Shown: positions 27,402-30,510 of the stretch, one piece after another
How positions within the stretch are numbered: the first letter of the stretch is position 1
Layout: every line of letters begins with the position of its first letter
NCBI RefSeq assembly: GCF_009177095.1
Contig: NZ_AP021861.1
Location: 2,586,501-2,650,500, forward strand
Source of the DNA: Lacipirellula parvula
Lineage (GTDB): Bacteria > Planctomycetota > Planctomycetia > Pirellulales > Lacipirellulaceae
Direction: 5' to 3'
DNA length: 64,000 bases
Program-made: the position numbers and the translations under genes
The notes under the pieces: generated by a model
What the model was told of the DNA's origin: nothing
What the model saw: only the letters and a program-made list of their open reading frames with translations
The model's database searches: none

Positions 27402-27443
27402 CACTGCCCACTGCCCACTGCCCACTGCCCACTGCCCACTGCC
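27402..27443. repeat. Tandem array of CACTGCC, six copies
   Basis: Six perfect head-to-tail copies of CACTGCC, then a partial CAC. It lies in non-coding DNA. Such short arrays change length by slippage; no regulatory role is evident. Confidence 0.9.
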
Positions 27444-27464
27444 CACCGACCGCTTTCTATCACC

Positions 27465-27492: not shown

Positions 27493-27921
27493 CTTTGTCG
27501 CTTTTAGTCGCGAAACGCGTTTTTGGCGACATAAATCGTAAGTTGCTTTCCGCGTGTGGGTTACGCGCTTCGGCGTTGCGACAATTTGTCGCGACCGCAA
27601 GCCGCGAGTGCTGTGCGACGGCAGTTTGAATTGCCTTATCGCGCAGCGGCGCCTTGGTAGATCGAGCCTAACAAAAGTGGTGGCCTAGTTTCGACAACAA
27701 ACTTCGAAGATTTTTGGGCGGCGAGTCGTCGCTTCAGACTGGGGCCGCCTGGCGAGGCGACTTCCGGACGGTGAAGAATCTCACGGCTGGTTACTGGCTT
27801 CGAAAAAGATGCGGCCGTTCGCAGCGAACATTAAATTGATGGATGCGAGTGACAGGGTAAGAAATAGTGCATTAAAATCGTCAACTCATAGAGATCGATG
27901 GCGCCGGGGGCTGATCTTCTG

Positions 27922-28695
27922 ATGCGTTTCCCTTCGTTTCTGCTGGTGCTCCTTGCCGCGTGCGGCGCGGTTGGCTGTCAACCGGGCGGCTCGACGCCGT
28001 CGGCGGACGTTGCTCGGCAGTCGAGCGAGTACATTGCGTCTTGGGCAGACATGGGGATGTACCTGCCCGATGCGAAGCAAGTCGGGTTTTTTCGTGAGCA
28101 CTTCGATGAGTTGCGACCAGAGCTGGTCGCCGCGCTCTCCGCTCCGGAATCTGCCGTTCAGCAACGCGCCGCCTATGTCATTGACGAGATCGGCGGTTCC
28201 GCGCGGGCGTGCGGCCCCGATCTGCTGCGCCGGTTGCAGGAGAATCCTGAGCGGCTGATTCGGATGTACTTGATCAACGCCTTGGCGAGCGTTGGGTACG
28301 ACGATCCCAACGCGATCGGCGAGCTCCAGCGTCGCTACAAGACCTTGAGCCGTGAGAACGTGCCGCGAGGCATGTTCGCCAGCGAGTATGACGACGTTGA
28401 TGAGCGGATTAACGTGGCCGCGGCTCTGTATCGACTCGTACCAGTGGAGGATCGCGACGAGTACCGCGAATTTGTTACTCAGTGGCTTGAGCCTCCCGGC
28501 GACGGATTGAGTAGCCGCGAACTCAACGGCTATACAGAGCGGCGGTGGCATGCGGTGATCGTCTTGGAATACATGCCGGGGGCATACGAGGCGATCGAAC
28601 CGCTCGACAAAATGCGGCAGGAGGAAGACGCTCCGGCCTGGGTCGAGGTCCACGTGCCGCGCGTGCTCAAGGCGCTGATGTCGAAGCCGGAGTAA
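27922..28695 (+). CDS. Lipoprotein with HEAT-like repeats
   Basis: Start is ATG 27922, where a lipoprotein signal begins (MRFPSFLLVLLAACGAVGCQ); an in-frame ATG lies 24 bases earlier. The mature 240 residues are alpha-helical with HEAT-like units: ELRPELVAALSAPESAVQQR followed by AAYVIDEIGG, and LLRRLQENPERLIRMYLINA followed by LASVGYDD. No catalytic residues are apparent. It is probably an envelope-bound scaffold. The permuted carrier-protein-like gene begins 53 bases after it on the same strand with a strong Shine-Dalgarno, so they may be co-transcribed. Confidence 0.7.
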   Translation: MRFPSFLLVLLAACGAVGCQPGGSTPSADVARQSSEYIASWADMGMYLPDAKQVGFFREHFDELRPELVAALSAPESAVQQRAAYVIDEIGGSARACGPDLLRRLQENPERLIRMYLINALASVGYDDPNAIGELQRRYKTLSRENVPRGMFASEYDDVDERINVAAALYRLVPVEDRDEYREFVTQWLEPPGDGLSSRELNGYTERRWHAVIVLEYMPGAYEAIEPLDKMRQEEDAPAWVEVHVPRVLKALMSKPE

Positions 28696-28748
28696 GCTCA
28701 TTCTTGATTCGGGCGATTCGTAACACGCAGGGCGCTCGAGGAGTCTAA

Positions 28749-29426
28749 ATGGAAGATTTGCGAATTAACCTAGTGACGGCGATCGAGGATCGCTTTGGCA
28801 TTACCCTTCGCGATGACGAAGCCGAGGCGATCCAAACGGTCGGCCAATTGTTATCGGTGATTGAAGCGCGGCGAGCGGCCGCGCGAGTTGCACCGTGCCG
28901 TTCGCTGCCGGCCTTCTTGTATGTTCGTCGCAATCTGCGTGACTTTCTTAGCCATGCCGAGCTACGCCTACGTCCCTCCACGCCGTTGGAACGAGTCATT
29001 CCGGCAAGTAGACGGCGCCAGTATTGGCGATCAATTCAACCCTGGGTGGGAGCGGCTCCAGCGTTGGAACTGCCGCTGAGTTTGCGTCGCATTGCGTGGG
29101 CGATTTACTTCGTAGCGTTCTTACTCGGAACTTCAACATTGCTGATCGACGTGAAGTGCCTCCCGCTGGGCGTGATGGCCGCTGCCTGTTTTTCGATTTT
29201 ACTCAACCTCGCAACTACCCCCTTACGCGTGATTCCGCCGCCGAAGTTTGCTACTGTGGGCGATGTTACGCGGCGTTTTGTCGGGCGCTCGACCGCCGTC
29301 AATATGGATATTCGCGACGAAGATTTGCTCTCCCCGCTGCAGCAACTTGTTGCGGGCGTGCTCGGGGTCGACCCTGGCGAAGTCGTTCCCGAGGCCAGCT
29401 TTGTTAATGATCTCGATCTTGAGTGA
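28749..29426 (+). CDS. Membrane protein with two acyl-carrier-protein halves in permuted order
   Basis: ATG 28749 has GAGGAG six bases upstream; the product is 225 residues. Residues 3-42 (DLRINLVTAIEDRFGITLRD then DEAEAIQTVGQLLSVIEARR) align with the half of an acyl carrier protein that follows the phosphopantetheine serine. Residues about 193-225 (LSPLQQLVAGVLGVDPGEVV then PEASFVNDLDLE) align with the half that precedes the serine. The DSL motif is missing from both. Between them lie a basic helical region (RLRPSTPLERVIPASRRRQY) and two membrane helices at about 113-155. It could be a genuine permuted fold or a product of recombination; a PEP-CTERM gene remnant follows directly. Function unknown. 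Confidence 0.7.
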   Translation: MEDLRINLVTAIEDRFGITLRDDEAEAIQTVGQLLSVIEARRAAARVAPCRSLPAFLYVRRNLRDFLSHAELRLRPSTPLERVIPASRRRQYWRSIQPWVGAAPALELPLSLRRIAWAIYFVAFLLGTSTLLIDVKCLPLGVMAAACFSILLNLATTPLRVIPPPKFATVGDVTRRFVGRSTAVNMDIRDEDLLSPLQQLVAGVLGVDPGEVVPEASFVNDLDLE

Positions 29427-29431
29427 TCGAG

Positions 29432-29491
29432 ATGGATAACTTTCAGACGTGAGCGCGGTCCTGGAGCCAGCGACGCTGGCAATTGCGGGTA
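29432..29491 (+). pseudogene. Remnant of a PEP-CTERM gene 3' end
   Basis: GATGGATAACTTTCAGACGT and GGAGCCAGCGACGCTGGCAA lie here in the same order as GATGGACAACTTTCGGATGG and GGAGCCGGCGACGCTTGGCA at 30161-30211 in the intact gene downstream. Small insertions and deletions break the frame, so no PEP-CTERM tail is made. It begins five bases after the stop of the carrier-protein-like gene. Confidence 0.65.
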
Positions 29492-29627
29492 GTCGTCGGG
29501 GGCGATTGCAAATTTTTTGGATGCGACAGAAACAAACTCGCCGCGTTGGCGCTTGGCCCTTCGTAGGTCGTCTCATGCGAGTCAATGCCTGCGATTCGCG
29601 GCCACTCCCTATCAATCAGGATGAACC

Positions 29628-30263
29628 ATGACGAAGAATCTGTGTTTGCTAGCCGGAATCATCACGCTCCTGTGGACCTCGGCCCTTAGTTCGCCGGCGT
29701 CGGCAGTGACCCTTGAGAGCACCTTCGATGCGGGGCTCGAGGGTTGGACTGGCAGCACTGGCGGCGACTTGGCCTTTGTTTCCACCGGCGGTAATCCGGG
29801 CGGATTCCTGCAGCAGACCGATACCGACCTGTCGGACATGTTCGTGATGGCGCCGGCCAGCTTCTTGGGCGATAAGAGCGCTTTCTTGAACGGCACGTTG
29901 TCCTTCGATGCACGCCAGGTCGGCGGCAACGCTGAGAAGTACGCGGCGTTTGGATTTGTCACGCTCTTCAACGGCGGCAATGCCATCAGTGCCGACATCG
30001 CCGGGGCCAATGCACCGTCCAACGACTGGACCACCTTCTCCGTGAACCTCAACGCCGCGGGATTTGAAACGACGCCGGAAGCGGTGGCGGCCGTGCTGAG
30101 CAACGTGACGATGATCATGATCACGCTCGAGTCGCAAATCGGCGTCGCCGAAACGACGGGGATGGACAACTTTCGGATGGTGAGCGTTCCGGAGCCGGCG
30201 ACGCTTGGCATTGCGGGGCTTGGTGTCTGCGGCGTGGCGCTGATGCGGCGGAAGCGGGGCTGA
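29628..30263 (+). CDS. PEP-CTERM exported protein
   Basis: The 211-residue protein has a signal peptide (MTKNLCLLAGIITLLWTSAL...ASA-VTLE) and a PEP-CTERM tail (SVPEPATLGIAGLGVCGVAL then MRRKRG). The body, STFDAGLEGWTGSTGGDLAF and GNPGGFLQQTDTDLSDMFVM, resembles laminin-B or choice-of-anchor type beta-sandwich domains found in such proteins. It should be exported and processed by an exosortase. No enzymatic residues are seen. The fragment at 29432-29491 is a decayed relative of its 3' end. Confidence 0.85.
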   Translation: MTKNLCLLAGIITLLWTSALSSPASAVTLESTFDAGLEGWTGSTGGDLAFVSTGGNPGGFLQQTDTDLSDMFVMAPASFLGDKSAFLNGTLSFDARQVGGNAEKYAAFGFVTLFNGGNAISADIAGANAPSNDWTTFSVNLNAAGFETTPEAVAAVLSNVTMIMITLESQIGVAETTGMDNFRMVSVPEPATLGIAGLGVCGVALMRRKRG

Positions 30264-30296
30264 ATTTGGCCGCGCCAGGCCCTACTCTAACGACAC

Positions 30297-30510
30297 TATG
30301 TTGGCCCCGGAGGGGCCGAGTGATGTAGCCAGGGGCGTGAGCCCCTGGTCTCAGGGCCGAGCTGTCAGTTTAAGCCCCGTGGGGGGCGACATCACTCCGA
30401 CTTATTGTGACGAATAACGCCGCCCCTCACGGGGCTACGAATCACCACCAGGCTTCGAACCAGGGGCTCACGCCCCTGGCTACATCATGCCGCCCCCTTC
30501 GGGGGCTAAT
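30297..30510. repeat. Compound palindromic repeat, CCAGGGGC family
   Basis: Three sets of palindromes are nested around the centre: GGCCCCGGAGGGGCC at the left edge, then GTAGCCAGGGGCGTGAGCCC near 30325 paired with GGGCTCACGCCCCTGGCTAC near 30465, then CCCCGTGGGGGG and CCCCTCACGGGG. About 210 bases in all. No protein is encoded. Confidence 0.75.

Follow-up and report, generated by a model that had tools for sequence, protein, structure and literature searches.

Introduction

Few small protein folds have been studied as thoroughly as that of acyl carrier protein (ACP; AcpP, PF00550, TIGR00517). Natural circular permutants are known among the saposins and swaposins, in which a helical domain with swapped order has been inherited by a whole family. 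For ACP, no report of a natural permutant or of a membrane-anchored form was found in the open-access literature, and a description elsewhere remains possible. The ACP fold is present in several lasting protein complexes. AcpM is reported to form such a complex with the membrane protein MmpL5 (PMC12346298). The titles of PDB entries name ACP as a docking or structural subunit on MukBEF, in mitochondrial complex I and in Ycf2-FtsHi. The ACPs of these complexes are ordinary and unpermuted, and are encoded apart from their partners.

Here we describe a gene of Lacipirellula parvula, located within a stretch of 64,000 nucleotides (hereafter the window; NZ_AP021861.1, positions 2,586,501 to 2,650,500). 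With good confidence, the gene is proposed to encode a membrane-anchored pseudo-ACP composed of two interlocked ACP-like domains (Table 1). The pseudo-ACP resembles AcpP in the sequence and the predicted fold of helices I to IV, in the acidic surface of helix II and in the TVG motif that opens helix IV, but differs from it in that the halves are swapped at Asp-Ser, the attachment serine is missing, and a second ACP-like domain appears to be inserted together with a membrane hairpin. The likeness to AcpM-MmpL5, MukBEF, complex I and Ycf2-FtsHi is that an ACP fold belongs to a stable protein assembly; unlike these docking ACPs, the carrier fold is here built into the membrane protein itself, and the attachment serine is missing. 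The fold also differs from that of saposins and swaposins, and the break of the pseudo-ACP falls on the attachment residue and removes it.

Table 1. Positions of the pseudo-ACP gene, its predicted parts and its flanking signals within the window
Feature	Position	Strand	Basis
GAGGAG ribosome-binding site, 5 nt 5' of ATG	28738..28743	+	sequence reading
Whole gene, permuted pseudo-ACP membrane protein, 225 aa	28749..29426	+	full-length homologues
Domain A part 1, ACP helices II, III and IV, residues 1-47	28749..28889	+	Pfam/NCBIfam; model helices 2-16, 22-27, 31-47
Putative domain B with ACP-like helix I, its loop and helix II (residues 50-104); basic, lacking the phosphopantetheine Ser	28896..29060	+	VIA-align, hhalign, charges
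Predicted membrane helix 1, residues 110-132	29076..29144	+	model helix; hydrophobic stretch
Predicted membrane helix 2, residues 135-155	29151..29213	+	model helix; hydrophobic stretch
Helix IV of putative domain B with TVGD motif (residues 169-182)	29253..29294	+	model helix 170-181; VIA-align
Domain A part 2, helix I of ACP with its loop, to the Asp-before-Ser position, residues 190-225	29316..29423	+	Pfam/NCBIfam, model, couplings
Decayed PEP-CTERM tail copy of the next gene, beyond the stop and outside the protein	29431..29560	+	local alignment to 30161-30283

Results

A circularly permuted ACP domain at the two chain ends

The helices of ACP are contiguous in the order I-II-III-IV, unlike those of the window protein, in which the order is II-III-IV ... 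I. The Pfam PP-binding model (PF00550) was aligned with residues 6-36 at profile positions 35-65 and with the last 37 residues at positions 3-29, the order being reversed, and the match of the whole protein (E 1.8e-6, 28.5 bits) was above the cut-off of 20.8. The NCBIfam ACP models placed residues 6-41 at positions 42-77 and residues 188-224 at positions 3-39, all of the curated NCBIfam ACP cut-offs being missed (NF002148, 48.2 versus 71 bits; TIGR00517, 38.7 versus 70.45). Both collections agree with the preliminary description of this DNA, which had assigned the N-terminus to the part of ACP after the phosphopantetheine serine and the C-terminus to the part before it. The matches are not due to chance, as about 90 homologues share these swapped ends. 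After the columns of domain A had been rejoined, hhalign comparison with ordinary ACPs gave 71 aligned columns with a probability of 99.8 and E 2.7e-30, and the separate halves gave E 1.2e-20 and 2.1e-15, the latter for the C-terminal part. In a profile search against all PDB sequences, ordinary ACPs were found among the best 60 matches. Domain A is homologous to ACP, and is read as a circularly permuted ACP built from both chain ends.

When ordinary ACPs were aligned with the family model, its positions 192-227 were matched first and its positions 3-42 afterwards, in swapped order, and exactly two ACP residues were skipped, the Asp-Ser of the phosphopantetheine site. In the canonical members L064, L074 and L119, position 38 of TIGR00517, the leucine after the serine, falls on residue 3. 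These two observations together indicate that Met replaces Asp and Gly replaces Ser; the family consensus starts with Met-Gly-Leu-Asp where ACP has Asp-Ser-Leu-Asp. With its start at the Ser position and its end at the Asp just before, the chain is broken exactly at Asp-Ser. The window protein, of which residue 2 occupies the Ser position, starts with MEDLRINLV and ends with SFVNDLDLE, in the same columns as MGLDGVELI and SFVNDLGMS of the homologues.

Glycine was present at the Ser position in 85 of the 86 aligned family members, and in 32 of the 35 homologues recovered without use of an N-terminal pattern; glutamate takes its place in the window copy. Glycine after the initiator Met is a strong trend of the family, and not a requirement for membership. 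The absence of the DSL motif from both halves had been pointed out in the preliminary description, together with the observation that would refute permutation, namely homologues in which one end or the other holds a whole ACP with DSL. No such case was seen, as DSL was found within ten residues of either end in none of 89 family sequences, nor near the ends of the window copy. In domain B, the column equivalent to the serine is occupied by R, K, S, E, A and others. As neither domain carries a conserved attachment serine, neither should be loadable with phosphopantetheine, and the pseudo-ACP is not expected, on this absence of the serine, to carry acyl groups.

The window copy is intact but divergent

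The reading frame of the window gene is unbroken for 225 codons, from ATG at 28749 to TGA at 29424-29426, and an in-frame TAA is read in the sequence immediately 5' of the ATG. The ribosome-binding site claimed in the preliminary description is present. The decayed PEP-CTERM tail that it had placed past the stop is also real: the sequence from 29431 onwards aligned with that from 30161 onwards with a score of 79, the maximum in 200 shuffles being 45. This tail is related to that of the following PEP-CTERM/laminin-B-like gene (29628-30263). The stop codon is at the usual position for the family, and the decayed tail does not reach the frame.

Several features of the window copy would fit a decaying pseudogene of a real family. 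The consensus MGLDxVEL is lost from the N-terminus, which starts with MEDL, and six N-terminal consensus residues are gone. The terminal branch of the window copy is 1.46, most neighbours having 0.4-0.7, and its GC3 is 0.60 versus 0.74 and 0.80 in the two flanking genes. In addition, no family member was detected in any of the five other genomes of the genus that were searched. However, the open frame has the length of the family and is preceded by a good ribosome-binding site, and the conserved residues E13, F16, T30, C50, F56, R60, W93, F218, D221 and L222 are all retained. Decay into a pseudogene is considered unlikely on balance, even if it is the most serious of the rival explanations. 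Fast evolution, recent acquisition or incipient decay could each explain the state of the window copy.

The surroundings of the gene include repeated sequences. The upstream gene (27898-28695) encodes a signal-peptide-like protein with a weak HEAT-repeat match (E 1.3e-5), and is not a conserved neighbour; in the gap 5' of it, a perfect 7-bp tandem repeat, CACTGCC, is present in 6.4 copies (27402-27446). A large imperfect inverted repeat at 30312-30496, with 38-nt arms of 92% complementarity, holds palindromic AGCCAGGGGCGTGAGCCCCTGG-type units, which are REP-like.

A probable second ACP-like domain and a membrane hairpin in the middle block

About 150 residues with two membrane helices had been described between the halves of domain A. 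The two helices are supported by the AlphaFold2 model, which was built from 48 sequences (pLDDT 90.4, pTM 0.72), and so is the proposed tethering to the membrane, but a probable additional ACP-like domain in this block had been missed. By VIA-align, residues 50-182 of the model were aligned in normal order with the ACP 2qnw (Z 8.7, 78/80 aligned, rmsd 2.8). The top 11 rows were ACPs or an ACP-containing entry, with Z 6.2-8.7, and the next other row had Z 5.8; the top ACP rows had Z 7.2-8.7 with 70-91 residues aligned. For helical bundles, Z 7-9 can be reached by chance, and these rows cover residues 50-182, not the permuted domain. Comparison of profiles by hhalign, with the membrane columns of domain B removed, gave 92% and E 6e-7 against domain A, and 44% and E 2.3e-4 against ordinary ACPs; six column-shuffled controls gave E 0.2 at best. 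The middle block is probably a second, diverged ACP-like domain with the membrane hairpin in place of helix III, and its assignment to the ACP fold depends on the agreement of model and profile. Domain B, in normal ACP order, would then be nested between the halves of the permuted domain A, and the hairpin would be inserted between helices II and IV of domain B.

The middle block is variable among homologues. The 87-aa member L119 from Phycisphaeraceae has nothing but helices II-IV and helix I, joined by a short linker, and the hairpin is also missing from L120 (121 aa) and L173 (155 aa). On the other hand, the middle block is present twice in L043/L116 and in L045 (426 and 416 aa). All these short and doubled forms retain both termini, and the membrane block is present or absent in modular fashion. 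Constant termini with a variable insert are as expected if the insert is optional and the two ends around it make up a unit. They also argue for a single origin of the family, inferred to be a tandem duplication of ACP domains followed by the appearance of new start and stop codons at two Asp-Ser sites.

Packing of the two chain ends

Isolated bridge residues were found in the model at positions 30, 79, 107, 162, 169 and 217. Since residues 50-182 align as a complete ACP-like unit, the bridges are assigned to 79-169 within domain B, to 107-162 at the neck of the hairpin and, by elimination, to 30-217, which is inferred to join the first and the last parts of the chain. The loop after the last helix was also modelled with confidence. 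Among the 20 strongest couplings, five link residues 1-47 with residues 190-225 (31-213, 8-201, 35-194, 14-219 and 18-222), about 1.5 being expected from the numbers of pairs. This signal was obtained with about 74 effective sequences, and is supportive rather than decisive. Together with the match of the rejoined columns, the model and the couplings are consistent with the earlier proposal that the termini build a single carrier-like domain without a modification site. The prediction that both termini lie in one bundle is well supported; the packing itself is inferred from bridges, confidence and couplings.

The same picture would be given by a domain-swapped dimer, each chain lending its helix I as a cap to helices II-IV of its partner. 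The long linkers and the membrane hairpin between the halves give room for such an exchange, and couplings and bridges are blind to the difference between contacts within and between chains. Nevertheless, the prediction of the monomer is locally confident at both ends (block pLDDT 83-97), and the linker from helix IV to helix I in the 87-aa member is only about 10 residues long, as in a simple monomeric permutant. We regard the swapped dimer as rather improbable.

It is very doubtful that the permutation is local instead, with helices II-IV of the N-terminus packed against the helix I at 52-67. One permuted ACP would then be contained in the first 85 residues, and the second TVGD helix would be the partner of the C-terminus. 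In favour of this reading, helix IV is directly followed by another helix I in the bare form, and some couplings of the N-terminus to residue 53 were detected (11-53 and 31-53). However, the helix 52-67 is used in the alignment of residues 50-182 of the model as a complete ACP of normal order, and the C-terminal segment is far better as ACP helix I than are helices I-II of domain B (hhalign E 2.1e-15 versus 7.8e-4).

By Foldseek, the whole model gave no match in the PDB below E 0.001, which is expected of a fold that is permuted and interrupted; the best ACP row had 36 columns with rmsd 0.8. For the 87-aa form, a model from the single sequence was poor (pLDDT 74), and its better VIA-align rows with ACPs cover only the helix II-IV part.

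The permuted family is spread over many phyla

The check on planctomycete homologues that had been suggested in the preliminary description was carried out. The same termini are shared by about 90 homologues, identified in Planctomycetota and about ten other phyla, and the permutation is therefore inherited. By protein search of 98 related genomes, full-length homologues were detected in three and partial ones in others; the complete homologues start with MGLD[SGA]VEL and end with SFVNDLG[ML]S or similar. About twenty further homologues came from a profile search that covered 392 genomes of the phylum, and a DNA pattern for the N-terminus, applied to 392 genomes, added few members, including one new hairpin-less form (L173). 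Members were present in 29 of the 297 Pirellulales genomes searched, and Aeoliella straminimaris, belonging to Lacipirellulaceae as does the window genome, carries a member with the same architecture. When named genomes were scanned, 80 loci were detected, of which about 57 are permuted, in Planctomycetota, Lentisphaerota, Kiritimatiellota, Verrucomicrobiota, Acidobacteriota, Pseudomonadota, Thermodesulfobacteriota, Myxococcota, Sumerlaeota and Bacteroidota, and in a cyanobacterial MAG. The scan relied on the N-terminal pattern, and statistics on the N-terminus were thus taken from the 35 members recovered by profile alone, of which 34 have a start codon at the family start site. In many members an in-frame stop is located no more than 10 codons upstream of the start, indicating that the N-terminus is complete.

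The alternative raised in the preliminary description, that remnants of two truncated ACP genes were fused by recombination as an artefact of the window genome, could be linked to the decayed PEP-CTERM tail after the stop, but is refuted for the family, since about 90 homologues distributed over about ten phyla start and stop at the same places, and it retains hardly any likelihood.

Two permuted pseudo-ACP genes are arranged in tandem in each of two loci, one from a planctomycete (L091, 3759-5774) and one from a Burkholderiaceae MAG (L104, 4755-6440). In two other genomes (G164 and G384), the matches (L042 and L052) are limited to the family's C-terminal part, apparently in decayed copies, and the genus of these genomes carries full-length family genes elsewhere. 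In both L008 and L009, a leuD-like gene adjoins the family gene, of which the frame is apparently shifted near the C-terminus in L008 versus L009.

A conserved operon was not detected: among 88 proteins encoded next to about 50 loci, no family was represented in more than two. On plasmids, no relative of L064 was found at E 1e-8, and models of defence systems gave no convincing match. Judging from the non-conserved neighbours and the patchy distribution, the pseudo-ACP probably has an accessory function.

Discussion

The pseudo-ACP family is widespread in bacteria and apparently undescribed. That the break exactly at the attachment serine is kept in about ten phyla suggests recruitment of the ACP fold for its surface alone, with nothing carried, and its anchoring to the membrane. 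As in ACP, domain A is acidic, with a mean charge of -3.3 for helix II and -2.9 for helix I and loop; domain B is basic, with +2.8 for helix I and loop and +2.7 for helix II. The flanks of the hairpin (+1.6 and +0.9) are more basic than its turn (-0.25), from which both domains are predicted to be cytosolic by the positive-inside rule.

The acidic domain A may retain the surface of helix II that ACPs use for partner binding, and the hairpin would keep it at the cytosolic face of the membrane, where it could recruit, hold or compete for ACP-dependent enzymes. Alternatively, domain A may lie against the basic domain B of the same protein until it is displaced, as a form of self-regulation. The role as decoy or docking domain proposed in the preliminary description stays a hypothesis. 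Docking is the simplest way in which an unloadable carrier could work, but is offered only tentatively, since function is inferred here without functional data. A far more speculative idea, to which we attach very little weight, is that the free amine of the conserved glycine, after removal of Met, lies next to the C-terminal Asp, where the Ser hydroxyl would be, and itself undergoes acylation or another modification. If so, the chain terminus would replace the phosphopantetheine arm in a membrane-held carrier, and the window copy, with Met-Glu, would have lost the activity.

The family provides a system for testing what the ACP surface alone does, which enzymes are bound by it, and whether lipid synthesis in bacteria is controlled through unloadable carriers. 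Annotation pipelines may list the pseudo-ACP genes as ACPs.

One further residue is worth noting. C50 (28896-28898), located between helix IV of domain A and helix I of domain B, is Cys in 83% of members and in 69% of the unbiased set, and is coupled with F56, R60 and F218; it could be an interface residue, a site of S-acylation or a metal site.
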